Assembly (NCBI GenBank): GCA_002238925.1
Contig: MPNH01000010.1
Location: forward strand, 1-64,000
Length of the DNA: 64,000 nt
Origin: Spirochaetaceae bacterium bin103
GTDB lineage: Bacteria > Spirochaetota > Spirochaetia > SZUA-6 > Bin103
Reading direction: 5' to 3'
Each line of letters begins with the position of its first letter. The stretch's first letter is position 1. The position numbers and the translations under genes were made by a program. Below are positions 3,905 to 63,434 of the stretch, in pieces. Under the pieces are notes generated by a model. It was not told the origin of the DNA, made no database searches, and was given only the letters and a program-made list of their open reading frames with translations.

Positions 3905-3910
3905 GCGCCG

Positions 3911-3939
3911 AACCTAAGCCGCACCCCCTCCCCGGTCAA
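3911..3939 (-). promoter_or_regulatory. Promoter of the split transketolase operon (leaderless type)
   Basis: On the minus strand, -35 TTGACC (3939-3934), a 17-bp spacer and -10 TAGGTT (3916-3911). Six bases (cggcgc) then separate the -10 from ATG 3904, so transcription should start at or next to the start codon. Confidence 0.75.
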
Positions 3940-6122: not shown

Positions 6123-6195
6123 GCGGTGAGTGTAACGTATCGGCGCACCGCCCCGGCTCGGCCTATACTCGGCGCCGGACAACACGGCTGATAGC

Positions 6196-7054: not shown

Positions 7055-8683
7055 TCATTGCGCGCGGCGCCGTTGCAGGTCGTGCCAGGGGACGACGCCG
7101 CAGCGGCGTGCCCAGTCGTCGTACCGGCGGGCCAGCCGGCGCACCTCACCGCCGTGGGCGGCAGCCAGGTCGCGCAGCTCGGTGCGGTCGCGGTGCATGT
7201 CGTACAGCTCCCAGGAGCCGGGGTGGCGGGAGACCAGCTTCCACTGGCCGTCGCGCACGGCGCGGTTGCCCTCGTGCTCGAAGAAGATGGGACGGTCGCG
7301 CTGCCACGGCGCGCCGGACAGCAGGGGCAGCAGGTTCTCTCCCTCCACCGGGGTCACCGGGCGCCCGTCACGGCGTTCCGGGAGCGGGATTCCGGCGGCG
7401 GCGAGCAGGGTCGGCATGATATCGATAACATGCACCGGCTGGTGCGCGATGCCGGAGCGCTCGATGGCCCGCGGCCACGACGCCACCAGCGGGGTGCCGA
7501 TGCCGCCCTCGTGCACCCAGTGCTTGAACAGCCGGAACGGGGTGTTGGAGGCGTTTGCCCACGGCAGGTCATAGCTCTGGAAGGTGTCGTCGGGGCCCGG
7601 CGCCACCGCCGGGGTGTTGCCGACGCGCATCGGGCGCCCGTCGGGGGTGGGGATGTTGTAGCGAAACGGCCCCGGGCTGTCGCCGTCCTCGTCCAGGAAC
7701 TCCGCGCAGCCGCCGTTGTCCGACAGGAACAGCACCAGGGTGTCGTCTTCCACGCCGGCGCGGCGCAGCGCGGCCATGATGCGGCCAATGCCGCGGTCCA
7801 TGCTCTCGACCTGTGCGGCGTACACGGCCATGCGCAGCTCCTCCCAGTCCGGGTGGCGCGCATCGCGCCAGGGCCGGGAGTCCGGGTCGCGCGGCGAGAT
7901 CGGCCAGCGCCGGTCCAGTACGCCCATGCCCTTGAGTTGCTCGTGGCGGGCGGTGCGCACGGCGTCCCAGCCGTCCCGGTAGCGGCCCTCGTGGCACGCG
8001 ATGTCCTCCGGCAACGCGTGCAGCGGCCAGTGCGGGGCGGTATAGCCGACGTACAGGAAGAACGGCGCATCCGCCGCGGCCGCCTCCTCCACCATGGTCG
8101 CGGCGCGATCGCTGATGTCATCGGTCAGGTAGTAGGAGTCCGACTCGGCGCCGGGGTTCACCAGGCGGTCGTCATGCACCATGTAGGGCGGGTTGAAGTA
8201 GCTGCCGCCGCCGCCGGCCATGCCGTAGTGGGTGTCGAAGCCGCGCTGCACCGGCAGCGGATGGTCGGGCGTGCCGGGGCGCCAGGTCTCGGGGCGGTTT
8301 GCCTGGTAGCCGCCGCCGACGTGCCACTTGCCCGCCATCATGGTGCGGTAGCCGCCCACCTTGAGCGCCTCGGCGATGGTGACGCAGTCGTCGCGCAGGT
8401 AGCCCTGGTACTCCGAAATGCCGTAGTTGCCCACCATGTGGCCGACGCCGGCCTGGTGCGGGTACAGCCCGGTGAGCAGCGCCGCACGGGTCGGACAGCA
8501 GCGCGCGCAGTTATACGCCTGCGAGAAGCGCAGCCCGGAGCCGGCCAGCGCGTCCAGGTTCGGGGTGGCAATCTCCGACCCGTAGCAGCCGATGTCCGAG
8601 TAGCCGAGGTCGTCCGCCAGGATCACCACGAAATTGGGGCGCCGCGCCGCCGGGCCGTTGCACTGTTCGTTCCGTTCCGCCAT
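7055..8683 (-). CDS. Type I sulfatase (arylsulfatase family)
   Basis: 542 residues from ATG 8683. The alkaline-phosphatase-superfamily sulfatase pattern is complete: metal-binding L-A-D-D-L-G at 22-27, then C62-C-P-T-R in which Cys62 would be converted to formylglycine, G-K-W-H-V-G-G and, later, L-S-D-N-G-G-C. It should hydrolyse sulfate esters from an organic substrate. I see no signal peptide, so action on imported substrate is likely unless a longer start is used. The start codon sits seven bases behind a TAGGCT -10 with no Shine-Dalgarno site. Divergent from the TauE-type permease, a possible exporter of sulfur oxyanions. Confidence 0.92.
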   Translation of the reverse strand: MAERNEQCNGPAARRPNFVVILADDLGYSDIGCYGSEIATPNLDALAGSGLRFSQAYNCARCCPTRAALLTGLYPHQAGVGHMVGNYGISEYQGYLRDDCVTIAEALKVGGYRTMMAGKWHVGGGYQANRPETWRPGTPDHPLPVQRGFDTHYGMAGGGGSYFNPPYMVHDDRLVNPGAESDSYYLTDDISDRAATMVEEAAAADAPFFLYVGYTAPHWPLHALPEDIACHEGRYRDGWDAVRTARHEQLKGMGVLDRRWPISPRDPDSRPWRDARHPDWEELRMAVYAAQVESMDRGIGRIMAALRRAGVEDDTLVLFLSDNGGCAEFLDEDGDSPGPFRYNIPTPDGRPMRVGNTPAVAPGPDDTFQSYDLPWANASNTPFRLFKHWVHEGGIGTPLVASWPRAIERSGIAHQPVHVIDIMPTLLAAAGIPLPERRDGRPVTPVEGENLLPLLSGAPWQRDRPIFFEHEGNRAVRDGQWKLVSRHPGSWELYDMHRDRTELRDLAAAHGGEVRRLARRYDDWARRCGVVPWHDLQRRRAQ

Positions 8684-8690
8684 GCCGGCG

Positions 8691-8719
8691 AGCCTATGTC
8701 CGTTCGCCGGCAGGCTCAA
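8691..8719 (-). promoter_or_regulatory. Promoter of the first sulfatase (leaderless type)
   Basis: Minus strand: TTGAGC (8719-8714), 17-bp spacer, TAGGCT (8696-8691), then seven bases to ATG 8683. Confidence 0.75.
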
Positions 8720-8776: not shown

Positions 8777-8805
8777 ATGACCTGGGGCGTCGTTCGGGCT
8801 ATCGT
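8777..8805 (+). promoter_or_regulatory. Probable promoter of the TauE-type permease
   Basis: ATGACC (8777-8782), 17-bp spacer, TATCGT (8800-8805), then 11 bases to GTG 8817. It is back to back with the sulfatase promoter, 57 bp apart. Confidence 0.5.
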
Positions 8806-8816
8806 GCGGCGGCACC

Positions 8817-9578
8817 GTGACCGAACTGCTGGAACACATGCCTGCCCTGAGCGCACTGCAGTGGGCCGGCTACCAGGCCGGCGCGCTGCTGGTGGGGTTC
8901 ACCAAGACCGGCGTGCCCGGCCTCGGACCGGTCGTGGTGCCGCTGATGGCGACCGTGTTCCCGGCGCGCGCCTCCACCGGCCTGCTGCTGCCCCTGCTGC
9001 TGGCCGCCGACCTGTTCGCCGTCGTGCACTACCGCCGGCACGCGGTGTGGCCGCACCTGTGGCGCCTGCTGCCCTGGGCCGCCGCCGGCATCGTGGCCGG
9101 CTGGCTGGTGCTCGGCCGCATCAACGACCGCCAACTGGAAGTGGCGATCGGCGCAATCGTGCTGGTGATCGTCGCCCTCGGCCTGCTGGGCGGGCGCTGG
9201 CAGGCGCGCTCCGACGCGATGGCTCGCTCCTGGTGGTGGGCGGGAGGGCTCGGGCTGGCGGCCGGCTTCACCACCATGATCTCCAACGCCGCCGGCCCGA
9301 TCATGGTGATCTACCTGCTCGCGATGCGCCTGCCCAAGCGCGAGTTTGTCGGCACCGGCGCCTGGTACTACCTCACCATGAACCTGCTCAAGGTACCGTT
9401 CAGCGCCAGCCTCGGGCTGATCACCGGCCCCACCCTGCTGCTCAACGCGACCGCGCTGCCGGCCATCGCCGCCGGCGCCTGGCTCGGCATCGCCGCGCTG
9501 GAACGCATCCCCGAGCGCGGCTTCAACACCGCCATGCAGGTCCTGGCCGCCGCCGCCGCCGTCAACCTCCTGCTGTAA
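8817..9578 (+). CDS. TauE/SafE-type anion permease
   Basis: 253 residues, about eight membrane segments in two halves. It has the TauE/SafE look: G-F-T-K-T-G-V-P-G-L-G in the first half and F-T-T-M-I-S-N-A-A-G-P in the second, the two inverted-repeat motifs of the family. Members move sulfite, sulfoacetate or related anions across the inner membrane. Divergent placement next to a sulfatase makes export of a sulfur anion a reasonable guess. The GTG start follows a -10-like TATCGT by 11 bases without a Shine-Dalgarno site. Confidence 0.85.
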   Translation: MTELLEHMPALSALQWAGYQAGALLVGFTKTGVPGLGPVVVPLMATVFPARASTGLLLPLLLAADLFAVVHYRRHAVWPHLWRLLPWAAAGIVAGWLVLGRINDRQLEVAIGAIVLVIVALGLLGGRWQARSDAMARSWWWAGGLGLAAGFTTMISNAAGPIMVIYLLAMRLPKREFVGTGAWYYLTMNLLKVPFSASLGLITGPTLLLNATALPAIAAGAWLGIAALERIPERGFNTAMQVLAAAAAVNLLL

Positions 9579-24821: not shown

Positions 24822-24827
24822 TACGGT
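24822..24827 (+). promoter_or_regulatory. -10 element of the amidohydrolase gene (leaderless type)
   Basis: TACGGT ends six bases before ATG 24834. The -35 is weak (CTGGCA at 24798-24803, 18-bp spacer). Confidence 0.45.
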
Positions 24828-24833
24828 TGGCGC

Positions 24834-25730
24834 ATGGACCAGATACCGATTGTCGACACCCACCAGCACCTGTGGGATCTCGATCTGCTCGACCTGCCCT
24901 GGCTCGAGGAGGCGCCGCAGCTCGCCCGCAACCACCGCATCGACCACTACCTGCGCGAAGTTGCCGGCCACGGCGTGGCCAGGGCGGTGTACATGGAGGT
25001 GGACGTTGCGCCGTCCGAACGCCCGCGCGAGCGCGAAGTGATCACGGCACTGTGCCGCGACCCGGAGGCACCTACCTGCGGCGCGGTATTCGGCGCCACC
25101 CCCGGCAGCGTCGAGTTCCCGGCCACCGTCGAAGCGCTGGCCGCCAATCCGTTCGCCAAGGGCGCCCGCCTGGTGCTGCATCCCCCCAACCTGCCGGCCG
25201 ACCACTGCCTGCAGGACGCATTCGTGAACGGCGTACGGCTGTTGGGGGCGAATGGCCTGATGTTCGATATCTGCATCCGCCCAACCGCTTTGCCGGAAGC
25301 CGCCGAGCTGGCGAGCCGCTGCCCGGGCACCACCTTGATCCTGGACCACTGCGGCAACGCCGATCCACACATCGTGGCCGGCAACGGCGGCAACCCCGGC
25401 GAACCGACCTACGGCCACACGCGCGAGCAATGGCTGGAAGGGATGCAAGCGGTAGCAGCGCAGCCCAACGTGGTATGCAAGATCTCCGGCATCGTGGCGC
25501 GCGCCGCCGCCGGCTGGTCCGCCGCCGATCTGGCCCCGGCGGTCAACCACTGCATCGACACCTTCGGCGAAGACCGCATCGTGTTCGGCAGCGACTGGCC
25601 GGTGTGCACCTTCGGCGCCCCCCTCCGCGAGTGGATTACCGCCCTACGCGAGATCATCAGCACTCGCCCCGACCGCCTCCAGCACAAGCTCCTGCACGAA
25701 AACGCCACCCGCATCTACCAACTCGCGTAG
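24834..25730 (+). CDS. Amidohydrolase-2 family protein, L-fuconolactonase-like
   Basis: 298 residues. V-D-T-H-Q-H-L-W-D at 6-14 is the HxH metal-site motif of amidohydrolase-2 TIM barrels in the sugar-lactonase branch. L-I-L-D-H-C-G-N near 166 and V-F-G-S-D-W-P-V near 250 supply the later His and Asp ligands. Members open sugar lactones such as fuconolactone. ATG 24834 is chosen over an upstream in-frame start at 24786 because homologues begin just before this motif. It probably processes the product of the divergent dehydrogenase. Confidence 0.85.
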   Translation: MDQIPIVDTHQHLWDLDLLDLPWLEEAPQLARNHRIDHYLREVAGHGVARAVYMEVDVAPSERPREREVITALCRDPEAPTCGAVFGATPGSVEFPATVEALAANPFAKGARLVLHPPNLPADHCLQDAFVNGVRLLGANGLMFDICIRPTALPEAAELASRCPGTTLILDHCGNADPHIVAGNGGNPGEPTYGHTREQWLEGMQAVAAQPNVVCKISGIVARAAAGWSAADLAPAVNHCIDTFGEDRIVFGSDWPVCTFGAPLREWITALREIISTRPDRLQHKLLHENATRIYQLA

Positions 25731-26812: not shown

Positions 26813-28294
26813 TCAGGTCTTGGCGGGGGGCCAGCTGGTGCCGCCGCGGCCGGCGACGTGGGTTACTTCGGTGGCTACCAGGGTGGCGTGCAGGCGATCG
26901 GTCAGGTGGGCGCGGCGGGCGGCGTGTTCGGGTGAGTTCCACAGGTTGGTGGTTTCGGCGGGGTCGGCGTGCATGTCGTACAGCTCGCCTTCCGGCGCGC
27001 GCCGGGCGTCGGAGTTGTGGTACAGGTTCAGCTTGTAGCGGCCGTCGTGGAACATGGTGCCGTAGATCGGCGGGTCCCAGTAGCCGGCGTTGCCGTAGCC
27101 GGAGTTGCGGTACATCGTGAGCGCGTAGTCGCGGGCCGTTCCCGCCGCCGCAGCGATGTCGCCGCGGGCCAGCGCCGCCAGGTCCTGCGACTCGGGCATC
27201 AAGGCCGCCACGTCGGCAGATGGCATGCCGGCGGCGCGCAGCAGGGTGGCGGCCAGGTCGTGCGGCTGCACCAGGTCGGCCACCCGCGTGCCGGCGCCCT
27301 CCGCCCGCGGCAGGCGCAGGATCATTGGTACCCGCGTGCAGGGGTCGTAGAAGTAGGCGCCCTTGGTGATCAGCTCGTAGTCGCCGATCATGTCGCCGTG
27401 GTCGGACACGAACAGCACCACGGTGTTGTCTGCCAACCCGCGCCGCTCCAGCTCGGCGAGGATGCGGCCCACCTGCCGGTCCAGGAAGGCGACCGAAGCG
27501 TAGTAGCCGTGCCGGACGTCGGCCACGGAGCGGCCCCCGGAGTCCCTGCCGTAGCGGCGGTGGAAGCCCTCCCGTTCGCGCGCCACCCCGCCGGGCACCG
27601 GCTCGTGCGCGGCGGTCAGAGGGCGTACCGGACCGATGGCGTCGCGGTCCACCAGGTCGCCGGCCGCCGGCGGGTAGTCAAAGTATGGTGAGTGGGGATC
27701 GAACAGGCTCACGTTCAGAAAGAAGGGCCGCGCCGGGTCCCGCTCCCCGAGGAAGGCGATGGCGCGCTCGGCGGCCCAGGTGCTGAAGTGCGCCTCCGCG
27801 GGATGGTGGTCCTGTGGTCCCGACTCCAGGCTGCGCAGGAACTCCGGCTGGTGCTCGCGCAGCCACGCCGCGTACGCGTTGAACGGCGAGTCGAGGTGAA
27901 TCTGCGGGTCGATGCACCACTCGTAGCGCTCGAAGCCGTCGTGCGGATGGCGCCGCTCCGCCTCCACCATGCGTCCCGACACGTGCAGCTTGCCTACCAG
28001 TGCGGTCTGGTAGCCGAGCCCCGCCAGGTGCGCCGGCAGCAGCACCTGGTCGTCGGGCAGGGTGTCGTGCAGCCGGTACACGCCGTGCCCCGGCGGCGGC
28101 TTGCCGGTCAGCATGCAGGCGCGGCTCGGCGTACAGATGGTGGCGTTCACGTAACAGCGCTCAAACAGCACACCGCCGGCGGCCAGCCCATCCAGAGCCG
28201 GCGTAATGATGGCGCGGCAGCCGTAGCAGCCGAGCGTATCCCAGCGCTGCTGGTCGCTCATTACGAGCAGAATGTTGGGCCGCCCCACCGCCAT
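26813..28294 (-). CDS. Type I sulfatase (choline-sulfatase/arylsulfatase type)
   Basis: 493 residues from ATG 28294. Metal site V-M-S-D-Q-Q-R-W-D near 11-19, modification motif C54-T-P-S-R, G-K-L-H-V-S-G, and V-S-D-H-G-D-M-I-G-D. No signal peptide from this start; a longer frame reaches back to 28444, but the promoter at 28304-28332 places the 5' end next to ATG 28294. Divergent from an LplB-LplC transporter 128 bp away, so its substrate is probably the cargo of that transporter. Confidence 0.9.
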   Translation of the reverse strand: MAVGRPNILLVMSDQQRWDTLGCYGCRAIITPALDGLAAGGVLFERCYVNATICTPSRACMLTGKPPPGHGVYRLHDTLPDDQVLLPAHLAGLGYQTALVGKLHVSGRMVEAERRHPHDGFERYEWCIDPQIHLDSPFNAYAAWLREHQPEFLRSLESGPQDHHPAEAHFSTWAAERAIAFLGERDPARPFFLNVSLFDPHSPYFDYPPAAGDLVDRDAIGPVRPLTAAHEPVPGGVAREREGFHRRYGRDSGGRSVADVRHGYYASVAFLDRQVGRILAELERRGLADNTVVLFVSDHGDMIGDYELITKGAYFYDPCTRVPMILRLPRAEGAGTRVADLVQPHDLAATLLRAAGMPSADVAALMPESQDLAALARGDIAAAAGTARDYALTMYRNSGYGNAGYWDPPIYGTMFHDGRYKLNLYHNSDARRAPEGELYDMHADPAETTNLWNSPEHAARRAHLTDRLHATLVATEVTHVAGRGGTSWPPAKT

Positions 28295-28303
28295 GCGGTG
28301 CGC

Positions 28304-28332
28304 AGCCTGCCGCACACCGCTTCCCGTGTCAA
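28304..28332 (-). promoter_or_regulatory. Promoter of the sulfatase at 28294 (near-leaderless)
   Basis: Minus strand: TTGACA (28332-28327), 17-bp spacer, CAGGCT (28309-28304), then nine bases to ATG. Confidence 0.7.
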
Positions 28333-28385: not shown

Positions 28386-28414
28386 TTGACCCGTCGGGGC
28401 CGGCTCCATAGGAT
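28386..28414 (+). promoter_or_regulatory. Promoter of the second LplB-LplC operon (near-leaderless)
   Basis: TTGACC (28386-28391), 17-bp spacer, TAGGAT (28409-28414), then eight bases to ATG 28423. Its -35 is 53 bp from the -35 of the divergent sulfatase promoter, so one regulator could control both. Confidence 0.75.
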
Positions 28415-28422
28415 TCGCTCCG

Positions 28423-29376
28423 ATGGCGGATCTTCCCGCGGCAAAGCCCCTGTCCCCTGCCCGGCCAGGCACCTTGCAGCGCGCCGGGCGCGTGCTGCGC
28501 AAGGACCGCTATCTCTACCTGATCTTCCTGCTGCCGTTCCTCTACTTCCTGGTATTTCACTACCTGCCGATCTACGGCGTCATCATCGCGTTCAAGAATT
28601 ACAAGGTGGCGTTCGGCATCTGGGGCTCCAAGTGGGTCGGGCTGCAGTATTTCATCGAGTTCCTGACCGATCCCTACGCCTGGAAGCTGATCCGCAACAC
28701 CATGCTGCTGTCGTTCTACAGCATCGTGTTCGGCTTCCCGATACCGATCATCCTGGCGCTGCTGCTCAACGAGCTGCAGATCTCCTGGTTCAAGCGCGTG
28801 GTGCAGACGGTCAGCTACCTGCCGCACTTCATCTCGGTGGTGGTGGTGGCCGGGATGGTCGTGAACTTCCTGTCCAGCGACGGCCTGGTGAACCGCATCA
28901 TCGTGGCGCTCGGCGGCGAGTCGTTCCCGTGGCTGATGCAGCCGCGCTGGTTCCCGGGCATCTACGTGATCTCCGGGATCTGGCAACACGCCGGCTGGAG
29001 TTCGATCATCTATCTGGCCGCCCTTTCGGCCATCGACCCGGAACTGTACGAGGCGGCCACCATCGACGGCGCAGGCCGCTTCCAGAAGATGCGCCACATC
29101 ACCCTGCCCGGCATCGCCCCCACCATCACCATCCTGCTGATCCTCGATCTCGGGCGCATCATGTCGGTTGGCTGGGAGAAGATCCTGCTGCTGTACACCG
29201 GCGCCACCTACGAGACCGCCGACGTGCTGCAGACCTACATCTACCGCCGCGGCCTGGAGGGCGCCGACTTCAGCTATGCCACCGCGGTAGGCGTGTTCCA
29301 GGGGCTGGTGGGCCTGGCATTCGTGATCGGGGCCAACTACCTGTCGCGCCGGCTGTCGGATACCAGCCTGTGGTAA
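28423..29376 (+). CDS. ABC transporter permease, LplB type (second system)
   Basis: 317 residues, six membrane segments; Y-L-Y-L-I-F-L-L-P-F-L-Y-F opening, EAA loop L-Y-E-A-A-T-I-D-G-A-G-R-F and C-terminal L-S-D-T-S-L-W as in the LplB protein at 13194. The close similarity and identical gene order suggest duplication of a transporter cassette. No Shine-Dalgarno site before the start. Confidence 0.9.
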   Translation: MADLPAAKPLSPARPGTLQRAGRVLRKDRYLYLIFLLPFLYFLVFHYLPIYGVIIAFKNYKVAFGIWGSKWVGLQYFIEFLTDPYAWKLIRNTMLLSFYSIVFGFPIPIILALLLNELQISWFKRVVQTVSYLPHFISVVVVAGMVVNFLSSDGLVNRIIVALGGESFPWLMQPRWFPGIYVISGIWQHAGWSSIIYLAALSAIDPELYEAATIDGAGRFQKMRHITLPGIAPTITILLILDLGRIMSVGWEKILLLYTGATYETADVLQTYIYRRGLEGADFSYATAVGVFQGLVGLAFVIGANYLSRRLSDTSLW

Positions 29377-40270: not shown

Positions 40271-40276
40271 TAGGCT
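40271..40276 (+). promoter_or_regulatory. -10 element of the sulfatase at 40283 (leaderless type)
   Basis: TAGGCT followed by exactly six bases (ggcgcg) and GTG 40283; no Shine-Dalgarno site. The -35 is not clear. Confidence 0.5.
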
Positions 40277-40282
40277 GGCGCG

Positions 40283-42008
40283 GTGAGTGACCGCCCCAAC
40301 ATCCTGGTGCTGATGACCGATCAGCAGCGCGCCGACGCCATGAGCTGCGCCGGCAATCCGATCCTGCGCACGCCCGCCATGGACGCCATCGCGGCTTCCG
40401 GCGTGCGCTTTACCAATGCGTGCGCGTCCACCCCGGTGTGCGTGGCCTCGCGGATGAGCTTCATTACCGGCCACCGCGCGGCGCGTACCCACTGGGTGGA
40501 CAACAACGCCCGGCCCGGCCCGGTGCCGGAGCTGCCGACCATGATGAGCTTGCTCCTGCGCGCCGGCTACTGGACCCACGGCGTCGGCAAGATGCATTTC
40601 CGTGGCCGCTCCTACGGCTTGCGCAACCTGCTCACGATGGAGGAGGGGGTCGCACACCGCGTCGACGACGACTACCTGCGCTCCCTGCGCGACGCCGGCG
40701 TGCAGGCGCGCTTTCCCAAGGGGATGCGCGACCTGCTCTACTTCCAGCCGCAGACCAGCGGTGTGCCGGTGCAGCACAGCGCCAGCAACTGGGTCGCCGA
40801 CCGCTCCGTCGATTTCCTGCGCGAGCACGCCCGCTACCGCTCCGACCAGCCGTTCTTCCTGTGGTCCTCCTGGATCGCCCCGCATCCGCCGTTCGCCCCC
40901 AGCGAGCCGTACGACACGCTGTACGATCCGGCCGCCATGCCGCTGCCGGAATACGCCGACCGGCCGGTGCACGACCTGCCCGCGGCGCTGTGGCCGCACC
41001 GCGCCCGCCTGGACGGCGCCCACCGCGACCCGGACCGCATGCGCCGCATCCGCGCCCTCTACTACGGCCTGATCGGCCAGGTCGACGACGGCATAGCGCG
41101 GATCATGGCCACGCTGCGCGAACTGGGCCTGGACGAAGACACGGTGGTGCTGTTTACCGCCGACCACGGCGAGATGCTCGGCGATCACGGCCTGTCGCAG
41201 AAGAACTGCCCCTACGAACCGTCGGTGCGGGTGCCGCTGCTGCTGCGCTGGCCGGGACGGACGCACGCCGGCGCCACCTGCGACGATCCGGTCGGTCTGA
41301 CCGACGTGCTGCCCACCCTCGTGGACGAGTTGGCCCTGGAATACCCCGCCGACCAGGGCCCGCTGCCGGGCGAAAGCTTGCTCGGCAAAACCGGCGGCGG
41401 CCTCGCCTCCGGGCGCGGCGACTACGTGATCGACTACGGTCAAGGCCCGCGCCGCGGGGCGGGGCGCTTAGTGAACGGACTCGGGTCAGGGCGCGCGCCG
41501 CTGGATCGCCGTGCGCCCCCGCCGCCACAAGTACGCCCTGTTCGCCTGCGACGGCGGCCGCGAGGAGCTGTACGACCTGCAATCCGATCCGCGCGAGCGC
41601 ACCAACCTCGCCGCCGCGCAGCCCGATCTGGCCGCCGCGTTCCGAGAACGCGCACTGGAATGGGAGCGCACTTCAGGCCTGGCGCAAGCGCCGGGGGAGT
41701 CCGCCTCATTCGACGGCCCCCGGTTCCGCACCTGGCCGACTCCCGTCCGCGTCCCGTCCGAAGAGGAATTACAAGACGTGGCGATCAACGAGGGGCCGTG
41801 GCCGAAGCGCGTTCCTGCTGACGAGGCCGCCGCCCTGGAGAGCTTCGCCGCCGCCTTCACCCGCGCCATCGGCAAGGAGACCACCCTCAGCCCCGGCAAG
41901 CTCTCCGTTGCCAGCTACAAGCGCAAGATCAGCCGCCTCGGCCCGCGCGACCCGGGCGGCGAATCCCTGGCAGGTACGCCCTGGGAGCAAGCCTGGCACG
42001 ACGCCTGA
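40283..42008 (+). pseudogene. Type I sulfatase gene with a frameshift near the C-terminus
   Basis: The first frame gives a standard sulfatase (L-M-T-D-Q-Q-R near 10; A-D-H-G-E-M-L-G-D-H-G) until about 41460. The natural ending (R-R-W-I-A-V-R-P-R-R-H-K-Y-A-L-F and the tail to TGA 42008) is in another frame. The total span is one base over a multiple of three, and G-runs at 41450-41465 are a likely spot for an extra base. Corrected length about 574 residues. The modification motif is C53-V-A-S-R, with Ala replacing the usual Pro. It may be intact in the real genome if the shift is a sequence error. Confidence 0.75.
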
Positions 42009-42023
42009 AAAAAGAGGATTTGA

Positions 42024-43175
42024 CTACTTGTAGGGGTCGGCGGCGTCGCGCAGGCCGTCGCCGACGGCGTTATAGCACAGCACCGTCACGAACACGAAGA
42101 GCCCCGGGATCAGCAGCCACGGGTTCAGCGCAATCACGCTCACGTTGGAGGCCTGCTGGAGTTGGACGCCCCAGCTCACCGTCGGGGAAGTCAGACCCAG
42201 GCCCAGGAAACTCAGGCCGGTCTCGCCGATGATCATCCCCGGAATCGCCAGGGTAACGTGCACGATCAGGTAGCCGACGAAATTGGGCAGCATGTGCCCG
42301 GTGATGACCCGGAGGTTGTTGGTGCCGGCCACCTTCGCCGCCGTAACGAAGTCCTCTTCGCGGAGTTGCAGGATCTTGCCGCGCACCGTACGCGCCAGCC
42401 CCGTCCAGCCGAGAATCGACAGGATCACCGACATCAGGAAGTACTTGGTTACCGGCGGCCACTCCAGCGGTATGGCCGCGGCCAGCGCCATCCACAGCGG
42501 CAACCCCGGCATTGCCTCAATGAACTCCACGATGCGCTGGATGATCATGTCCACGCCGCCGCCGAGCAGGCCGGAGGCGCCGCCGAGCAGGGCGCCGAGC
42601 ACGAAACTGAGCGCAATGCCGACCAGGCCGATGGACAGCGAGATCTGCGCGCCGTGGATGACGCGGGTCAACACGTCGCGGCCCAGGTCGTCGGCCCCGA
42701 ACAGGTACACCACCCCCGGCTCGTCGACGCCGAACAGGCGAATTCTGGACTCGATCAGGCCCCACAGCTTGTAGGGTTCCCCGCGGACGAACAATCTGAT
42801 CGGGTAACGCGTCTCCCGGTCTTCGGAGAACACCAGCAGGAACGTCGCCGGATCCCGCTCCTGCGCCAGGCCGTACACGAACGGCATCTGCAGCCTGCCG
42901 TCGTGGAACACGTGCACCCGCGTCGGCGGCAGGAACGCCAATTCCGTTCGGCTCCGGATCTTGTCATAGGGCGAAAAGAACCCGGCAAAGACCGCCGTGA
43001 AGTACAGCACGGCCAGAATAACCGCCGACACCACCGCCAGCTTGTGGCGCGTGAACTTGCGCCGCATCAGCACCCAGTGGGATGCGACGTAATACTGTTC
43101 CCGTTGTTCCTCGGCCCGGCTGGCGGCCGCTGACTGCGTCGGCGCGTGCATCGGCGCCCGCGTCTCGGTGCTCAT
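42024..43175 (-). CDS. Peptide/nickel-type ABC transporter permease, DppC/OppC family
   Basis: 383 residues. The first membrane helix (about 47-68) is followed by an unusually long periplasmic insert of about 100 residues before G-A-D-D-L-G-R-D-V-L-T-R, the usual OppC entry into the core. The EAA region is E-D-F-V-T-A-A-K-V-A-G-T. Its ATG 43175 overlaps the OppB stop by one base (TGATG). Long inserts of this kind are known in OppC variants of large-substrate or sugar transporters. Confidence 0.9.
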   Translation of the reverse strand: MSTETRAPMHAPTQSAAASRAEEQREQYYVASHWVLMRRKFTRHKLAVVSAVILAVLYFTAVFAGFFSPYDKIRSRTELAFLPPTRVHVFHDGRLQMPFVYGLAQERDPATFLLVFSEDRETRYPIRLFVRGEPYKLWGLIESRIRLFGVDEPGVVYLFGADDLGRDVLTRVIHGAQISLSIGLVGIALSFVLGALLGGASGLLGGGVDMIIQRIVEFIEAMPGLPLWMALAAAIPLEWPPVTKYFLMSVILSILGWTGLARTVRGKILQLREEDFVTAAKVAGTNNLRVITGHMLPNFVGYLIVHVTLAIPGMIIGETGLSFLGLGLTSPTVSWGVQLQQASNVSVIALNPWLLIPGLFVFVTVLCYNAVGDGLRDAADPYK

Positions 43176-44170
43176 CACATCTGTTTCTCGAACCGGATGC
43201 GCGGATCCACCACCACCAGCAGGAGGTCCGATATCAGCGTGCCGAACAGCCCCAGCGAACCCAGGAACAGGATCAGGCTGGCGGCAATCTGCAGGTCCTG
43301 CTCCAGGAGCGCGGTCAGCAGCAGCGGGCCCACCGTGGGCAGGCTCAGCACGATCGACACCAGCGCCTCGCCGGACACCACACCCGCCAGCAGACCCGCC
43401 AGGCCGGACACCATCGGATTGATCGCCAGCCGGATCGGGTACTTGAACAGCAGGCGGCCCTCGCGTACGCCCTTGGCACGCGCGGTCACCACGTACTGCC
43501 TGCCCAGTTCGTCCATCAGCGTGGTGCGCAGCACGCGGATCATCCCGGCCGTGCCGGCGGTGCCGATCACGAACAGCGGCACCGGCAGGTGCTTCATCAG
43601 GTCGATTACCTTGGCGAAGCTCCACGGCGCCACCAGGTACTCGGGCGAAAACAGGCCGCCCGGGCTCCAGCCGAAGTAGCGCTGGAACAGGAACATCAGG
43701 ATGAGCGCGAGCAGGAAGTTGGGCGTGGCCAGCCCCATGAAACCGAATACCACGCCGGTGTAGTCGCCGACCGAGTAGGGATGGGTGGCCGAGTAGATCC
43801 CGATCGGGATCGCGATGATGTAGGTAACCACCATGGTGGACAGCGAGATGACGATCGACAGCATGATACGCTCGCCGATCAGTTCCGCCACCGGCCGGTT
43901 GTGGGTGGCCGATTCACCGAAGTCGCCGCGGACGATGATGTTGGTAATCCACTTCCAGTACTGGATGTGGAACGGTTCCTTGAAGCCCCAGCGCTTGTTG
44001 AGCGCCTCGATGGCCGACTCGTCGAGCGTTACCCCGAACCGCTCCATGTAGTAGATGAAGTTGTCGATCCAGTCTCCCGGCGGCAGCTGAATCACCGCAA
44101 AGGCGACAAAGGACAGCATGATCAGCAGCAGGACCATGTAGAAAAGTCGCCGTCCGATGTAGCTGGCCAT
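43175..44170 (-). CDS. Peptide/nickel-type ABC transporter permease, DppB/OppB family
   Basis: 331 residues, six membrane segments. N-terminus Y-I-G-R-R-L-F-Y-M-V-L-L-L, then G-D-F-G-E-S near 107 and the EAA loop Y-V-V-T-A-R-A-K-G-V-R-E-G-R. The start ATG 44170 lies six bases behind a TAGGCT -10 with a perfect TTGACA -35, and no Shine-Dalgarno site. So oppBC has its own leaderless promoter even though the SBP gene is just upstream. No ATPase genes are nearby. Confidence 0.9.
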   Translation of the reverse strand: MASYIGRRLFYMVLLLIMLSFVAFAVIQLPPGDWIDNFIYYMERFGVTLDESAIEALNKRWGFKEPFHIQYWKWITNIIVRGDFGESATHNRPVAELIGERIMLSIVISLSTMVVTYIIAIPIGIYSATHPYSVGDYTGVVFGFMGLATPNFLLALILMFLFQRYFGWSPGGLFSPEYLVAPWSFAKVIDLMKHLPVPLFVIGTAGTAGMIRVLRTTLMDELGRQYVVTARAKGVREGRLLFKYPIRLAINPMVSGLAGLLAGVVSGEALVSIVLSLPTVGPLLLTALLEQDLQIAASLILFLGSLGLFGTLISDLLLVVVDPRIRFEKQM

Positions 44171-44176
44171 CGTGCG

Positions 44177-44205
44177 AGCCTAAGCCCGCCAATGACCGCT
44201 GTCAA
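44177..44205 (-). promoter_or_regulatory. Promoter of oppB-oppC-like genes (best leaderless example)
   Basis: Minus strand: TTGACA (44205-44200), 17-bp spacer, TAGGCT (44182-44177), six bases cgcacg, ATG 44170. Confidence 0.85.
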
Positions 44206-44222: not shown

Positions 44223-44253
44223 AAAAAGCGGCCGCCCGGGAGAGGACGGCCGC
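44223..44253 (-). terminator. Intrinsic terminator of the SBP gene
   Basis: Minus strand: CGGCGGCCG region with stem GCGGCCG/CGGCCGC (arms 44253-44247 and 44234-44228) followed by TTTTT (44227-44223). It separates the SBP gene from the oppBC promoter. Confidence 0.7.
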
Positions 44254-44263
44254 CGTGGGGTCA

Positions 44264-46326: not shown

Positions 46327-46355
46327 TTGAGCACCCCGCCAGCCGGTGGTACGGT
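46327..46355 (+). promoter_or_regulatory. Promoter of the PhyH gene at 46361 (leaderless)
   Basis: TTGAGC (46327-46332), 17-bp spacer, TACGGT (46350-46355), five bases, ATG 46361. Divergent from the SBP promoter, 74 bp between the two -35 boxes. Confidence 0.7.
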
Positions 46356-46360
46356 AGGGT

Positions 46361-47167
46361 ATGGACGCGCGCCAGCAATACCTGTTCGATACCCGCGGCT
46401 ACCTGGTTCTCGACGATGTCGTGTCGGCCGAACAGTGCCGGCGGTTGATCGCCGCGGTGCATGAATTGATCGACGTGCCCGACGCCGACCTGCCGGAGGG
46501 GGTGACCAGCAGCAACGAACTCACCCTCGCGCGGCTCGGCGATCTGACCAGCGCCGCGCCGGAGTTCTGCGAGCTGATCGACATCCCGTGCGTGATCGAC
46601 CTCCTGAAGGTCATCATTCACCACCAGCTGCGCCTGGAGAACACCTACGCCTACGTCCGCCGCAAGGGGTTCGCCGGCCTGCGCATGCACGGCGGCGGGT
46701 CGTTCGACAGCAACGGCCAGGACCTTACGCTGATGTACCGCCACTTCAACGGGCGCATCTTCAGCGGCCATACCGTGGTGGCGTTCAACCTCACCGACGT
46801 CAGCGAGGAGGAAGGCGGCTTCGCCTGCATCCCCGGCAGCCACAAGGCCAACTTTCCGATTCCCGAGGACATGAAGACACTCGAGAATGGGGTCGACCGC
46901 TCACTGATCCAATGCGTGCCGTGCCGCGCCGGCTCGGCGGTAATCTTCACCGAGGCGCTGTGCCACGGCGCCACCCCGTGGACCAGCGACCGCGAGCGAG
47001 TCACGCTGTTCTACAAGTATCACCACGCCGGCATGAAGTTTCACGGCTTCTTCCCGAGCCGTGCCGCCCTGGAGCGGATGACCCCGAGCCAGCGCTCCTT
47101 CTACATCGAGGTGTCCGCCGACCAGCGCGACCCGCGCCAGCTCTACCCCGCCCCAGCCCGCGGCTGA
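46361..47167 (+). CDS. Phytanoyl-CoA dioxygenase (PhyH) family protein
   Basis: 268 residues, normal length for PhyH-like Fe(II)/2-oxoglutarate oxygenases. N-terminal D-T-R-G-Y-L-V-L-D-D-V; C-terminal block F-T-E-A-L-C-H-G-A-T-P-W carries the distal iron His. The proximal HxD/E motif is less obvious: L-R-M-H-G-G-G-S-F-D near 106-115 may supply it. P-G-S-H-K-A-N-F is the usual core strand. Family members hydroxylate small molecules or remove substituents. Followed 84 bp later by a Gfo/Idh gene with its own promoter. Confidence 0.8.
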   Translation: MDARQQYLFDTRGYLVLDDVVSAEQCRRLIAAVHELIDVPDADLPEGVTSSNELTLARLGDLTSAAPEFCELIDIPCVIDLLKVIIHHQLRLENTYAYVRRKGFAGLRMHGGGSFDSNGQDLTLMYRHFNGRIFSGHTVVAFNLTDVSEEEGGFACIPGSHKANFPIPEDMKTLENGVDRSLIQCVPCRAGSAVIFTEALCHGATPWTSDRERVTLFYKYHHAGMKFHGFFPSRAALERMTPSQRSFYIEVSADQRDPRQLYPAPARG

Positions 47168-50798: not shown

Positions 50799-52735
50799 TC
50801 AGTAGTGGAACCGCTGCAGCTCGGCGCGGTCGCGCTCGTACTCGGAACGCAGCGTCTGCGTCACCTCGCTGCGGCTCACCTCTGCCGGCGCCACGTCCCA
50901 CCAGGTATCGGCCCCCGGCACGTAGCGGTGCTTCTCCACCTCGCACACGATCACGCACGAGCGCGTCTCGGCGCGGGCCTCGCGCAGCGCGGCGCGGACT
51001 TCGTCCTGCGTGGCCGCGTTCCAGGCGCGCGCGCCCATGCCGCGCGCGATCGCGGCGATGTCCACCGGCAGGTACTCTCCTTCCAGGCGCGGACCGTCGT
51101 CGGCGCCGGTGCTGCCGTCCGCCGCGCCGCCGCGGGCGCGCAACTCGTTGCCGAACGCGTGCCCGGTGCGCCACATCTGCAAGCGCCGGATCACCTGGAA
51201 GCCGTGGTTGTCGATCACCACCACGGTCACCTTCAGCTGCTCCTGCAAAGCGGTGATCAGCTCCATCGGATTGAGCAGAAAGGTGCCGTCGCCGATGTAC
51301 ACGAACACCTCGCCCCGCCTGCCGGGACCGCCCCGCCGGGACGCCCGGCCCCCCCGGCCGCCATGCGCACGCCGACCCCGGCGGGCAACTCGTAGCCCAT
51401 GCAGGAGAAGCCGAACTCGATGTGGCAGCGGCTGCCGTTGCCGCCATCCCACAGCTTGAGGATGTTGCCGGGCGGCGCCCCGGCCGCCGCGACCACGGTG
51501 TCGTGGCCCTGCGACTCCTCGTTGAGCACCTCGATCACCTGCCCCTCGCTCATCACCTCGCCGGGATGGTCGCCGTAGGCGTCGGTACGCACGATCTTGT
51601 CCCAGTCCTGCTGCGCCTCGGCGACCCGTTCGCCGTAACCCGGGAACGCCACCCCGGCGCCCTGCCCGGCAGTGAGCAGCGCCTCCAGGGCGAGCCGGGC
51701 GTCCGCCACCACCGGCAGCGCGCCCTGCTTGAAGGCGTCCAGCGCGCACACGTTGATGGCGATAAAGCGCACGTCCGGATCATGAAACAGGCTCTGCGAC
51801 GCGGTGGCGAAGTCGCTCAAGCGGGTGCCGACCGCGATCACCAGGTCCGCCTCCTCCGCAATGCGCGCCGCCGCGCTGGTGCCCTCCACGCCGTGGCCGC
51901 CGAGCGACCACTCCGGGGCGCCGCGCAGCGCGCCCTTGCCGGCGTGCGTCTCGCTCACCGGAATGCCGAACCCGGTGGCCACCGCGCGCAGCGCGTCCCA
52001 CGCCGCCGAGTAGTGCACGCCGCCGCCGGCGATGATCACCGGGCGCTTGGCTGCCTGTAGCAGCGCGACCGCCTCGTCGATGCGCTCCGCGACCGGCGGG
52101 CGGCGTTCTATGCGCCAGGTGCGCTCGGCGAAAAACTGGCTCGGGTAGTCCCAAGCATGCGCCTGCACGTCCTGCGGCAGCGACAGCGTTACCGCGCCGG
52201 TTTCGGCCGGGTCGGTGAGCACCCGCATCGCCTGCGGCAGCGCGGTAAGGAGCTGTTCCGGCCGGGTGATGCGGTCGAAAAACCGGCTCACCGGGCGGAA
52301 GCAGTCGTTCACGCTCACGTCCGCCGCCGACGGGTGCTCCAGTTGCTGCAGCACCGGCCCCTGGTGGCGGGTGGCGTAGTAGTCGGAGGCCAGCAGCAGC
52401 ACCGGCATCCGGTTGATGGTGGCAGTGGCCGCCCCGGTCACCATGTTGGTGGCGCCGGGCCCGATCGAGCTGGTGCAGGCCAGCGTCTGGGTGCGCAGGG
52501 TGGCGCGCGCGAAGCCCGCCGCGGTGTGCACCATCGACTGCTCGTTGCGCGTCTGGTGGTAGGGCAGATCCGCCCCGCCCTGCTCCAGGGCCTGCCCCAG
52601 CCCGCACACGTTGCCATGCCCGAAGATGCCGAAGATGGCCGGTATCAGCCGCCGCCGCTCCCCGTCGAACTCGCTATACTGAACCGCCAGGTACTTCACA
52701 AGAGCCTGCCCCATGGTCAGGCGTTCGGTCCCCAT
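50799..52735 (-). CDS. iolD: IolD-like thiamine-diphosphate hydrolase, frameshifted as read
   Basis: Corrected product about 645 residues. ThDP-dependent enzyme of the acetolactate-synthase superfamily: catalytic Glu in R-N-E-Q-S-M near 66, G-P-G-A-T-N-M near 94, and the C-terminal ThDP motif Y-I-G-D-G-T-F-L-L-N-P. It matches IolD, which opens 3D-(3,5/4)-trihydroxycyclohexane-1,2-dione in myo-inositol breakdown. The first frame fails after G-V-R-M-A near 51350 in a G/C-run stretch; the ending is in another frame (total length two bases over a multiple of three). The extra low-complexity residues at the break suggest sequence error rather than decay. First gene of the operon. Confidence 0.8.
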
Positions 52736-52741
52736 GGCGCT

Positions 52742-52771
52742 ACCTTACGGCCCCCGCGCGCGCAGCGTCAA
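52742..52771 (-). promoter_or_regulatory. Promoter of the IolD-transaldolase-sulfatase operon (leaderless)
   Basis: Minus strand: TTGACG (52771-52766), 18-bp spacer, TAAGGT (52747-52742), six bases, ATG 52735. Confidence 0.65.
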
Positions 52772-55004: not shown

Positions 55005-55033
55005 TTGTGCAATCGGTCGCCTATCTTTATATT
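55005..55033 (+). promoter_or_regulatory. Promoter of the ammonium transporter gene (near-leaderless)
   Basis: TTGTGC (55005-55010), 17-bp spacer, TATATT (55028-55033), eight bases, ATG 55042. Confidence 0.65.
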
Positions 55034-55041
55034 GCCCGGCA

Positions 55042-56412
55042 ATGGATAAGCTGAAGGATCGCCGGAAGGCTCGTATCGGCGCCCGGGTGGGCGTGATTGG
55101 TATCGTGCTGGGGGCGCTGGCCGGCACGCCGTTGTATGCGCAGGATGCGTCGGTAGCTACGCAGATCGCCGACATCATCGTGGGAATCGACACGGTTTGG
55201 GTGCTGCTGGCGGCCTTTCTCGTGTTCTTGATGCAGGCCGGCTTCGGCATGCTGGAGGCGGGCCTGATCCGCGCCAAGAACACCGCCAACATCCTGATGA
55301 AGAACCTGATGGACTTCTGCATGGCGTCGCTCGGCTTCTTCATTTTCGGCTACGCCATCATGTTCGGCTCCGGCAACCCGCTGTTCGGCACCAGCGGCTG
55401 GTTCCTGATCGGCGCCGAGTCCGCCGCCGGCGTGCCGCTGTACGCGTTCTGGCTGTTCCAGGCGGTATTCGTGGGCGCCGCAGCCACCATCGTGGCGGGC
55501 GGCATGGCCGAGCGCATGAAGTTCCCGGCCTATGTCATCTATTCGTTCCTGATCTCGGCGTTCGTGTACCCGATCGTCGGCCACTGGATCTGGGGCGGCG
55601 GCTGGCTGGCCAGCCTCGGCTTTGCCGACTTCGCCGGCTCCACGGTCGTGCACGCGGTGGGCGGCTGGGCCGCATTCATCGGCACCCGCGCGCTCGGGCC
55701 GCGCATCGGCAAGTTCGGCCCCGACGGCAAGCCCAACGTGATCAGCGCGCACTCGCTGCCGCTCGCTTCGCTGGGCATGTTCCTGCTGTGGTTCGGCTGG
55801 TTCGGCTTCAATCCCGGCTCCACCCTTGGCGTCGGCGACGGTTCGCTGATCGCGCGCGTGGCCATCAACACCAACCTGGCCGCCGCCGCTGGCGCTATCG
55901 CCGCCACCGCGACGGTCTGGATGGTGGTCGGCAAGCCCGACCTCACCATGGGCATGAACGGCGCGCTCGCCGGCCTGGTGGCGATCACCGCGCCGTGCGC
56001 GTTCGTGGAACCCGGGCACGCCATCATCATTGGCCTGATCGGCGGCGTAATCGTGGTGTTCGGTGTGCTGTTCCTGGACCGGCGCCGCGTCGATGACCCG
56101 GTTGGGGCGATCGCCGTGCACGGCATGAACGGCATCTGGGGCACCGTCGCGGTGGGCATCTTCGGGCAGGCCGCCCTCGGCGTGGCCAACGACGGCCTCT
56201 GGTTCGGCGGCGGCTTTACGCAGTTGGGCATTCAGCTCCTCGGCACGGTCACCGTGAGCGTGTTCATCATCGTGGTGATGGGGCTGATCTTCAAGCTGAT
56301 CGACGCCGTGGTCGGGCTGCGCGTGCCGCGCAACGAAGAACTCAAGGGCCTCGACGTGGCCGAGCACGGCACCGAGGCATACGGCGGCTTCCAGGTGTTC
56401 ACGACCGAGTAA
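55042..56412 (+). CDS. amt: Ammonium transporter, Amt family
   Basis: 456 residues. An N-terminal signal segment ends near L-Y-A-Q; eleven membrane helices follow. Amt marks: L-E-A-G-L-I-R-A-K-N near 73, twin-His positions in S-A-H-S-L-P-L-A-S near 235 and A-V-H-G-M-N-G-I-W near 358, and W-F-G-W-F-G-F-N-P-G-S. Conducts ammonium into the cell. No glnK/PII gene follows, which is unusual because amt and glnK are often paired. No Shine-Dalgarno site before the start. Confidence 0.92.
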   Translation: MDKLKDRRKARIGARVGVIGIVLGALAGTPLYAQDASVATQIADIIVGIDTVWVLLAAFLVFLMQAGFGMLEAGLIRAKNTANILMKNLMDFCMASLGFFIFGYAIMFGSGNPLFGTSGWFLIGAESAAGVPLYAFWLFQAVFVGAAATIVAGGMAERMKFPAYVIYSFLISAFVYPIVGHWIWGGGWLASLGFADFAGSTVVHAVGGWAAFIGTRALGPRIGKFGPDGKPNVISAHSLPLASLGMFLLWFGWFGFNPGSTLGVGDGSLIARVAINTNLAAAAGAIAATATVWMVVGKPDLTMGMNGALAGLVAITAPCAFVEPGHAIIIGLIGGVIVVFGVLFLDRRRVDDPVGAIAVHGMNGIWGTVAVGIFGQAALGVANDGLWFGGGFTQLGIQLLGTVTVSVFIIVVMGLIFKLIDAVVGLRVPRNEELKGLDVAEHGTEAYGGFQVFTTE

Positions 56413-61230: not shown

Positions 61231-61260
61231 TTGACCCGCACGCGGGCACGCCGGTATCGT
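61231..61260 (+). promoter_or_regulatory. Promoter of the UvrD-type helicase gene (leaderless)
   Basis: TTGACC (61231-61236), 18-bp spacer, TATCGT (61255-61260), six bases, GTG 61267. Confidence 0.75.
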
Positions 61261-61266
61261 GCGCGC

Positions 61267-63378
61267 GTGTCGGGCATGGGCGTGGTCCTCAATCCGGAAC
61301 AGGAACGGGCGGCCGCCGCCATCGACGGGCCGCTCATGGTGCTCGCGGGCGCCGGCTCCGGCAAGACGCGCGTCATCACCGCGCGGCTGGCGCGCATGCT
61401 GCAAGCCGGCGTTGATCCGCGCGCCATCGTCGCCCTGACCTTTACCAACAAGGCGGCCGCCGAGATGCGCGAACGCGCGGGCATCTCCCGGCGCGGACGG
61501 CGCGCCGTTCCCACCGTGTGCACCTTCCATGCCCTCGGCCTGGAGCTGGTGCGCCGCTTCAGCGCCGAGTTGGGGTTCCGGTCCGCAAGCACCGGCACCG
61601 GTGCCGCCGCCGCGGTACCGGTTACCGTGTACGACCAGCAGGACAGCGCCCAGCTCCTGCGCGAGGTAGCGCGCGACCTGCGCCTGGATGCCGACCTGGC
61701 GGAGGCCGATTCGGCCGTGCTGCAGCGGCTGGTATCGGGGCTGCGCATGGGCGTCGCCGGCGTCCCGGACCTGGACGGAGCCAGCGAACAGCTGCGCGGG
61801 CTGGTGTCCGCCTACCGGCGCCGGCTGCGCCTGTACCACGCCGTCGACTTCGACGACTTGATCCTGCTGCCGCTGGAGCTGCTGCGCGGCGACGCCGGCG
61901 ACGCCATCCGGGCGCGCTTCAGCCACGTGATGGTGGACGAGTTCCAGGACACCTCGCGTCGCCAGTACGAAATCCTGCACGCCCTCACCGAGGCGGCGCG
62001 CAACGTGTGCGTGGTGGGCGACGACGACCAGTCGATCTACTCCTGGCGCGGCGCCGAGGCGGCCAACTTCGACCACTTCAGCCGCGACTTCCCGGAGCGG
62101 CTGGAGATCAAGCTGGAACAGAACTACCGCTCCACCGGCTCCATCCTGGCATTCGCCAACGCCGTAATCAGCGGCAACAGCGGCCGGCGGCCCAAAAAGC
62201 TGTGGAGCGACGGCGGCGCCGGGATGCACGTCATGGCCGCCTACCCGGAGAGCGACACCGACGAGGCGGAGTGGATCGTGCGTCAGATCCGCAGCCTGGC
62301 GCTCGGCAGTGGCCTGCGCTACGCCGACTGCGCGGTGCTGGTGCGCGCCAACAGCCTTACCCGCGCCCTGGAAGAGGTGCTGTTGCGCGAGGGTATTGCC
62401 TACCAGGTGTCGGGCGGCATGAGCTTCTTCAGCCGCCGCGAGGTGCGCGACCTGATTGCCTACCTGCGCGTACTGGCCAACCCGGACGACGACGTCAGCA
62501 TGCGCCGCATCATCAACACGCCGCGGCGCGGCCTGGGCGCCGCCGCCCTGGAGCGCATCACCGCCACCGCGGCGGCGCACCACTGCTCGCTGTACTCGGC
62601 GGTGGTCCTGATCGGCGGCGGCACCGAGGCCGAGTCACCGCCCGAGCATGCCCGCCTGCGCCCGCTCGCCGGCGAGCTGGTGGAGCTGCTGGAGCGCTAC
62701 GCGGCGCGCATCCGCGGCGCCGAGCGCAGCCGCGCCATGGCGTCGGTGCTGACCGAGCTGGTCGACGAGCTGCAGTACCGCAACCACCTGCTGGACGGCG
62801 TCCGGGCCGATGCCGCGCGCTGGAAGCTGGCCAACGTGGATGCGGTAATCGACTCGCTGGCCTCCTTCGAGCAACACCCCGACCGCATCGCTCCCTCCCT
62901 GACCGACTATCTCGCGCGCACCGCCCTGGTGAGCCGCGACGACGACTCCCCCGACCGCGGCGGCGACGAGCGCGGGCGGGTTCAGTTGATGACCATCCAC
63001 GCCGCCAAGGGCCTGGAATTCGACACCGTGTTCATCGCCGGCGCCGACGACGGCTCCATTCCGCACGCCCGCTCGCTGGCCGATGGCGAAGCCAACCTGG
63101 CGGAGGAGCGGCGCCTGTTCTACGTCGCCGCCACCCGTGCCCGGGAGCGCCTGTACATTACCAGTCCCGCGGTGCGGCGGCGGCGCGGCCCCCGCGGCCG
63201 CCCCCAGGAGCACGCCGCCCGGGCCGGCCGCCCGGCGGCCCCCCCCCCCGAGCCGTCCCGCTTCCTCGGCGAGATCCCTCCCCACTTGGTCGACGGCGCC
63301 CCGGACGAGCAGGAACTGGCCCCCGAACAGGCCTCCGCCCTGTTCGCCGACCTCAAGCGCCGCCTCGCCGCCCGCTGA
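61267..63378 (+). CDS. uvrD: ATP-dependent DNA helicase, UvrD/PcrA/Rep family
   Basis: 703 residues from GTG 61267, chosen because the promoter ends six bases upstream and the protein then starts L-N-P-E-Q-E-R-A as family members do. All superfamily 1A motifs are present in order: A-G-A-G-S-G-K-T near 27-34, T-F-T-N-K-A-A near 59, V-D-E-F-Q-D-T, G-D-D-D-Q-S-I-Y-S-W-R-G, Q-N-Y-R-S-T, T-I-H-A-A-K-G-L-E-F and Y-V-A-A-T-R-A-R. It unwinds DNA 3' to 5' in repair or replication. The tail contains a low-complexity Arg/Pro patch over an 11-C run (63239-63249) that may hide sequence error. Confidence 0.93.
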   Translation: MSGMGVVLNPEQERAAAAIDGPLMVLAGAGSGKTRVITARLARMLQAGVDPRAIVALTFTNKAAAEMRERAGISRRGRRAVPTVCTFHALGLELVRRFSAELGFRSASTGTGAAAAVPVTVYDQQDSAQLLREVARDLRLDADLAEADSAVLQRLVSGLRMGVAGVPDLDGASEQLRGLVSAYRRRLRLYHAVDFDDLILLPLELLRGDAGDAIRARFSHVMVDEFQDTSRRQYEILHALTEAARNVCVVGDDDQSIYSWRGAEAANFDHFSRDFPERLEIKLEQNYRSTGSILAFANAVISGNSGRRPKKLWSDGGAGMHVMAAYPESDTDEAEWIVRQIRSLALGSGLRYADCAVLVRANSLTRALEEVLLREGIAYQVSGGMSFFSRREVRDLIAYLRVLANPDDDVSMRRIINTPRRGLGAAALERITATAAAHHCSLYSAVVLIGGGTEAESPPEHARLRPLAGELVELLERYAARIRGAERSRAMASVLTELVDELQYRNHLLDGVRADAARWKLANVDAVIDSLASFEQHPDRIAPSLTDYLARTALVSRDDDSPDRGGDERGRVQLMTIHAAKGLEFDTVFIAGADDGSIPHARSLADGEANLAEERRLFYVAATRARERLYITSPAVRRRRGPRGRPQEHAARAGRPAAPPPEPSRFLGEIPPHLVDGAPDEQELAPEQASALFADLKRRLAAR

Positions 63379-63427: not shown

Positions 63428-63434
63428 GCGTGCG

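Follow-up and report, generated by a model that had tools for sequence, protein, structure and literature searches.

Sigma70-type promoters adjoining start codons and predicted leaderless mRNAs in a GC-rich spirochaete genome

Introduction

In the window (the whole stretch of 64,000 nucleotides analysed here), the gene of an OppB-type ABC permease is preceded, on the minus strand, by the arrangement TTGACA-N17-TAGGCT-CGCACG-ATG at 44168-44205, which raises the question of whether a promoter so close to its start codon leaves room for any 5' leader, and how often the same layout recurs in this genome. A sequence-only reading of the window had quoted this example, which we confirm, as the best case of a promoter with sigma70-type boxes that recurs directly before start codons and had predicted leaderless mRNAs from it; the genome-wide peak and the absence of Shine-Dalgarno (SD) sites described below support this core claim. 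In sigma70 promoters, transcription usually begins about 6 nt behind the -10 box. A gap of 6 nt thus puts +1 on the A of the ATG, and the mRNAs are therefore most likely leaderless.

Actinobacteria and Deinococcota are well-established bearers of leaderless genes in which a TAnnnT element adjoins the start (PMC3160421, PMC12340547), and leaderless mRNAs of Deinococcus deserti have been mapped, as cited in PMC5243855. Among Spirochaetes, 6 of 18 genomes were predicted to contain so-called TA-led (leaderless) genes, with an average of 3.9% and a maximum of 6.9% (Zheng et al., 2011, PMC3160421), while differential RNA-seq of Leptospira interrogans revealed about 440 leaderless mRNAs (leaders shorter than 10 nt) and no common promoter motif except that of sigma54 (PMC5243855). 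The remark of the sequence-only reading that no such systematic pattern is known for this kind of genome does not hold once the genome is assigned to the spirochaetes (see below), and the case of the window's genome belongs to a known kind. GC-rich uncultured spirochaetes presumably lay outside the data then available to Zheng et al. (2011).

Materials and methods

The assembly containing the window comprises 4.78 Mb in 96 contigs. Gene-based tests on this genome (G000) covered about 1.0 Mb of the 4.78 Mb, with a GC content of 67% in the sampled part; a portion of this sample and nearly all of the sample from a sister genome of the same genus (G001) were chosen around pattern matches, and results for unselected stretches are given separately. 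A genome of the same family (G003) was also used, and the pooled gene-based test comprised four genomes of the class (G000, G001, G003 and G062). Genes were called by a small, home-made, hexamer-based gene finder blind to upstream signals, which on a stretch of Escherichia coli found 39 of 42 genes and placed the start exactly in 31 of the 39.

Upstream regions were searched de novo with position-specific gapped 3-mers; a free EM motif search of the same regions merely picked up their GC composition and was abandoned. For pattern counts independent of gene calling, the control was changed from the reversed pattern to the same boxes with the ATG shifted to a gap of 14-16 nt, since genuine promoters that happen to have an ATG behind them would outnumber a reversal as well. 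"Gap" denotes the number of nucleotides between the -10 box and the start codon.

Results

Promoters adjoining start codons in the window

The features of the permease locus and of the other sites are collected in Table 1. The permease gene follows a solute-binding-protein gene, from which its promoter is separated by a terminator-like hairpin, so that a promoter of its own makes sense at this place; G001 shows a similar hairpin and T-run at the corresponding position. Directly before this hairpin, at the end of the solute-binding-protein gene, a palindrome-like element, GTTCTTAAAGAAC, is repeated three times in tandem, 17 bp apart (44264-44310, one copy being GTTCTCAAAGAAC). Exact copies of it were found in none of the 214 loci searched; G001 carries a diverged version of the tandem element in the same place.

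Table 1. Promoters adjoining start codons in the window, with neighbouring features of the permease locus
Feature	Positions	Strand	Evidence or conservation
TTGACC-N17-TAGGTT-N6-ATG, transketolase N-terminal subunit	3902..3939	-	-10 kept in G001, gap 7
TACACT-N6-ATG, M29 peptidase; -10 only	6120..6134	-	sequence
TTGAGC-N17-TAGGCT-N7-ATG, sulfatase	8681..8719	-	sequence
ATGACC-N17-TATCGT-N11-GTG, TauE/SafE family	8777..8819	+	sequence
TACGGT-N6-ATG, amidohydrolase; -10 only	24822..24836	+	sequence
TTGACA-N17-CAGGCT-N9-ATG, sulfatase; weak -10	28292..28332	-	sequence
TTGACC-N17-TAGGAT-N8-ATG, LplB-type ABC permease	28386..28425	+	G001: boxes kept, gap 12 nt
TAGGCT-N6-GTG, sulfatase; -10 only	40271..40285	+	G001: TANNNT kept, flanks differ
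Predicted leaderless gene, oligopeptide-type ABC transporter permease (BPD_transp_1 + BPD_transp_1_N)	43175..44170	-	Pfam
ATG, OppB-type ABC permease start, 6 nt behind -10; predicted +1	44168..44170	-	sequence
-10 box TAGGCT, 17-nt spacer to -35	44177..44182	-	sequence; conserved in G001
-35 box TTGACA	44200..44205	-	sequence; conserved in G001
Intrinsic-terminator-like hairpin, 11 pairs then T-run	44227..44254	-	RNA fold -26.8 kcal/mol, z -4.2
TTGAGC-N17-TACGGT-N5-ATG, PhyH dioxygenase	46327..46363	+	in G001 conserved as TAGGGT
TTGACG-N18-TAAGGT-N6-ATG, thiamine-diphosphate enzyme	52733..52771	-	conserved in G001; G003 TATGAT, gap 7
TTGTGC-N17-TATATT-N8-ATG, ammonium transporter	55005..55044	+	G001: conserved, gap 9
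TTGACC-N18-TATCGT-N6-GTG, UvrD-type helicase	61231..61269	+	sequence

All the other starts that had been listed with both boxes (3904, 8683, 28294, 28423, 46361, 52735, 55042, 61267 and 8817) are present, and those with a -10 alone (6122, 24834 and 40283) read as quoted. The spacer is 17 nt throughout, except at 52735 and 61267 (18 nt). The -10 at 28294, CAGGCT, departs from TANNNT, and at 8817 the gap reaches 11 nt, for which we predict a short leader rather than a strictly leaderless mRNA. With strict TANNNT at a gap of 5-9 nt, 7 of 32 operon-first genes of the window and 2 of its 6 "mid" genes carry the element.

The thiamine-diphosphate enzyme at 51257-52735 (492 aa), named IolD by the sequence-only reading, showed only the N and M domains of TPP_enzyme, TPP_enzyme_C not being reported, and may be shortened or divergent.

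Pattern counts across the assembly and the phylum

In a search independent of gene calls, the whole 4.78-Mb assembly holds 13 copies of TTGACN18TANNNTN6ATG, against one occurrence of the reversed pattern, and the version with a gap of 6-8 nt occurs 23 times, again against one. The same boxes with the ATG shifted to gap 14-16 give only 4 matches. In three relatives, gap 6-8 versus the reversed pattern yields 17 versus 1, 6 versus 0 and 11 versus 0, and the four family members sum to 57 matches at gap 6-8 versus 21 at gap 14-16. When the ATG is sought behind TTGAnn-N17-TANNNT in a partly selected sample, it appears 12, 4 and 3 times at gaps 6, 7 and 8 and mostly 0-2 times elsewhere.

Of 60 spirochaete genomes from across the phylum, 54 have more matches at gap 6-8 than at gap 14-16 (totals 1402 versus 745), significance within the single genome being lacking in 38 of the 60. 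The seven genomes of the window's class have a ratio of about 3.5 between the two gaps, the remainder one of 1.7; the trait is thus widespread but uneven in Spirochaetota. In samples of other families passed through the gene-based pipeline, the peak is borderline in G133 (P 0.03) and not significant in G158 (P 0.11). The strict promoter-ATG pattern is very abundant in G133, G158 and G142, all three from other Spirochaetota families, with 180, 107 and 86 matches per genome and control-gap counts of 28, 29 and 26, respectively.

The gene-based peak

A peak at 5-9 nt between the -10 and the start codon, on which the sequence-only reading had staked its proposal, is present: in the four pooled genomes TANNNT stands at gap 6-8, with its centre some 10-12 bp before the start codon, in 93 of 905 operon-first genes, versus 17.2 expected. 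In the sampled 1 Mb of G000, the element at gap 5-9 precedes 52 of 424 single and operon-first genes (12%) versus 7 of 212 operon-internal ones (3%). The unselected part of this sample has it at 24 of 199 first genes, versus 9 at gap 25-29, and the unselected sample of G003 (two contiguous 200-kb stretches, 400 kb) at 19 of 152, versus 5.7. The de novo search returned TAnnnT 6-9 nt before the start as the strongest motif other than SD. The same pipeline finds a clear peak (9 versus 1.8) when given 150 kb from a D. deserti plasmid; this plasmid holds no exact match of the strict pattern at either gap, a result that carries no weight in either direction.

Properties of the starts

The contention that the starts adjoining a -10 lack SD sites, and that genes inside operons have them, holds: an SD site accompanies 7 of 92 starts with the -10 versus 254 of 813 without it (P 3e-7) and 47% of the operon-internal genes in the G000 sample. 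The deficit at these starts is in part due to the -10 itself, which occupies the space of an SD. ATG is the start codon in 78 of the 92 starts with the -10 versus 548 of the 813 others (P 5e-4). A 16S gene was not found in the window's own assembly; in G003 the 3' end of 16S is GGATCACCTCCTTTC, which is normal, with a canonical anti-SD, so that SD pairing is available. This anti-SD and the SD sites of the operon-internal genes speak against a genome devoid of SD initiation.

Upstream of the -10, a TTG occurs with a spacer of 17 nt in 28 of 96 cases and of 18 nt in 7, and at most twice with any other spacer. In the unselected subsets, TTG at spacer 17 or 18 is weaker than in the full set, with 5 of 23 cases in G000 and 3 of 20 in G003. 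The clearest -35 boxes are concentrated in the window, where about 8 of 11 tabulated sites have a TTG at these spacers, versus the 5 of 23 in the unselected stretches of G000; this surplus reflects either chance or unusually strong leaderless promoters in the region.

The arrangement is conserved gene by gene, 13 of 16 testable sites being kept in place at the start codon in G001. In 39 aligned pairs, which were aligned on the -10 and limited to those whose -10 is kept, T1, A2 and T6 agree in every pair (39 of 39) and the TTG position of the -35 in 33 of 39, versus an identity of 69% in the spacer and 57% upstream of the -35.

The primary sigma factor

The RpoD of the window's genome shares 62-70% identity with primary sigma factors of Spirochaetales and Spirochaetaceae and groups with those of Spirochaetales, which characterizes the organism as a GC-rich, apparently uncultured spirochaete; an assignment to Chloroflexota is rejected on the same grounds. 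Regions 2.3/2.4 and 4.2 of this RpoD are canonical and differ little or not at all from those of other spirochaete RpoD proteins. The promoters, for their part, have the anatomy expected of group-1 sigma70: a TTGACa-like -35, a spacer of 17 ± 1 nt and TAnnnT.

Discussion

We consider it highly probable that these are ordinary promoters of RpoD (group-1 sigma70), which have 6-8 bp between the -10 and the start codon and would yield leaderless or nearly leaderless mRNAs. RNA polymerase should start transcription on the first base (A or G) of the start codon or at most 1-2 nt from it, and the resulting mRNA would have neither a 5' leader nor an SD site. Its translation would most likely be leaderless, with the initiating ribosome recognizing the 5'-terminal start codon directly. 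Among operon-first and single genes, a sizeable minority would use this mode; the operon-internal genes and many other first genes would rely on normal SD initiation. We infer the position of the mRNA 5' end from promoter geometry only, and the mechanism of translation is likewise proposed from the sequences. The effect itself is real and genome-wide, and it is an extension of an established mode of gene initiation, not a new mode.

Could the peak be produced by open reading frames beginning right after an in-frame TAG or TAA, which would mimic TANNNT before a called start? At gap 6 the TAG or TAA of the -10 does share the reading frame of the ATG (examples are 44168, 3902 and 52733), yet the probability of such an artefact is next to nil, since an equal peak at gap 6-8 is seen for TA[CT]NNT, which cannot form a stop codon (54 versus 11.7), whereas TGANNT has no peak (4 versus 5.2). 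Furthermore, the T at position 6 is needed (TANNN[ACG] gives 51 versus 42.5, hardly any peak), the out-of-frame gaps 7 and 8 peak as well, and 150 kb of E. coli passed through the same pipeline shows no peak (4 versus 5.9), so that this explanation is refuted. Another alternative is that the starts are miscalled: the promoters might be real and the true starts lie further downstream, the mRNAs then having normal leaders and SD sites. Both our gene finder and the sequence-only reading lean to upstream starts, and the start calls were exact in just 31 of 39 E. coli genes. However, start codons mark the 6-8 nt peak even in counts that involve no called genes, true starts further downstream would give no reason for an ATG at precisely this distance, and the start codon is conserved in G001 with the gap unchanged or almost so; we regard this explanation as improbable.

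Slightly more improbable still is a dedicated alternative sigma factor that recognizes a TAGGNT -10 and runs a regulon which happens to be leaderless. The sequence-only reading had noted an unusual preference for G at positions 3 and 4 of the -10, and TAGGNT is in fact over-represented in the window (5 of 8 strict sites); in addition, the genome encodes at least four proteins with sigma70 region 3, three of them besides RpoD. Outside the window, however, TAGGNT accounts for only 11 of 88 sites, so that no distinct class of TAGGNT promoters emerges, and the preference is at most weak genome-wide, with G at positions 3 and 4 in 31% and 42% versus 20% and 31% in other upstream TANNNT hexamers (Fisher P 0.02 and 0.06). 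The genes concerned are of diverse function (transketolase, helicase, permeases, sulfatases, ammonium transporter), and TTGAC with TANNNT are the boxes of group-1 sigma70, for which the canonical RpoD is at hand. The motif is TANNNT in a genome of 67% GC, as already described for GC-rich bacteria (PMC3160421). As for the three further sigma70-region-3 proteins, one (L057) is encoded just beyond the window (contig C51, 69907-73137), the other two being L058 and L059.

Ordinary RpoD promoters abutting the start codon being thus the preferred reading, the closest counterparts are the -10-proximal promoters of Deinococcota (PMC12340547), which likewise combine TANNNT a few bp before the start, the lack of an SD, a GC-rich genome and a -35 that is helpful and not obligatory. 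The peak is also of similar size, the excess among first genes being 10.4% in the D. deserti plasmid sample and about 9-10% in G000 (with a PWM trained on relatives). In contrast to Deinococcota, the present case concerns a different phylum and is known from sequence alone, and most sites in the window (8 of 11) carry a good -35 as well. With the TA-led genes of Zheng et al. (2011, PMC3160421), which include those of actinobacteria, the promoters share TAnnnT with an uninformative middle, a position about 12 bp upstream and GC-richness, and, as shown above, they stand at single and operon-first genes rather than operon-internal ones, at starts without an SD. L. interrogans, a distant member of the same phylum, also has leaderless mRNAs (mapped there, predicted here); unlike in that organism, for which no housekeeping motif was reported, the -35 and -10 boxes are plain in the window's genome.

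What the present case adds is a clear anatomy of -35 and -10, conservation gene by gene and an effect of the size seen in the Deinococcus sample, by which an uncultured GC-rich spirochaete lineage joins the short list of bacteria with common leaderless genes. It also offers a testable promoter rule for a phylum whose one large start-site map that we found, that of Leptospira, gave no housekeeping motif. We put forward tentatively, as a possibility that we stop short of favouring, that leaderless initiation is a standing mode on the scale of Deinococcus in a GC-rich clade of Spirochaetia, weaker across the phylum and conserved gene by gene, the choice between leaderless and SD initiation being a maintained regulatory trait and not noise.

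In these genomes, gene finders that rely on SD sites only will set starts wrongly, and true starts are better located by means of the promoter. The start of the UvrD-type helicase, for example, is placed at 61267 from its promoter, while the coding score alone chooses the ATG at 61276; for the amidohydrolase, the coding score alone favours an in-frame ATG at 24786 over 24834. One more strong promoter of this layout, TTGACA-N17-TAGGTT-N7-ATG, is found at 63399-63437; its ATG (63435) is out of frame with the gene called from 63502, and it belongs either to a small unrecognized gene or to a promoter with a leader.
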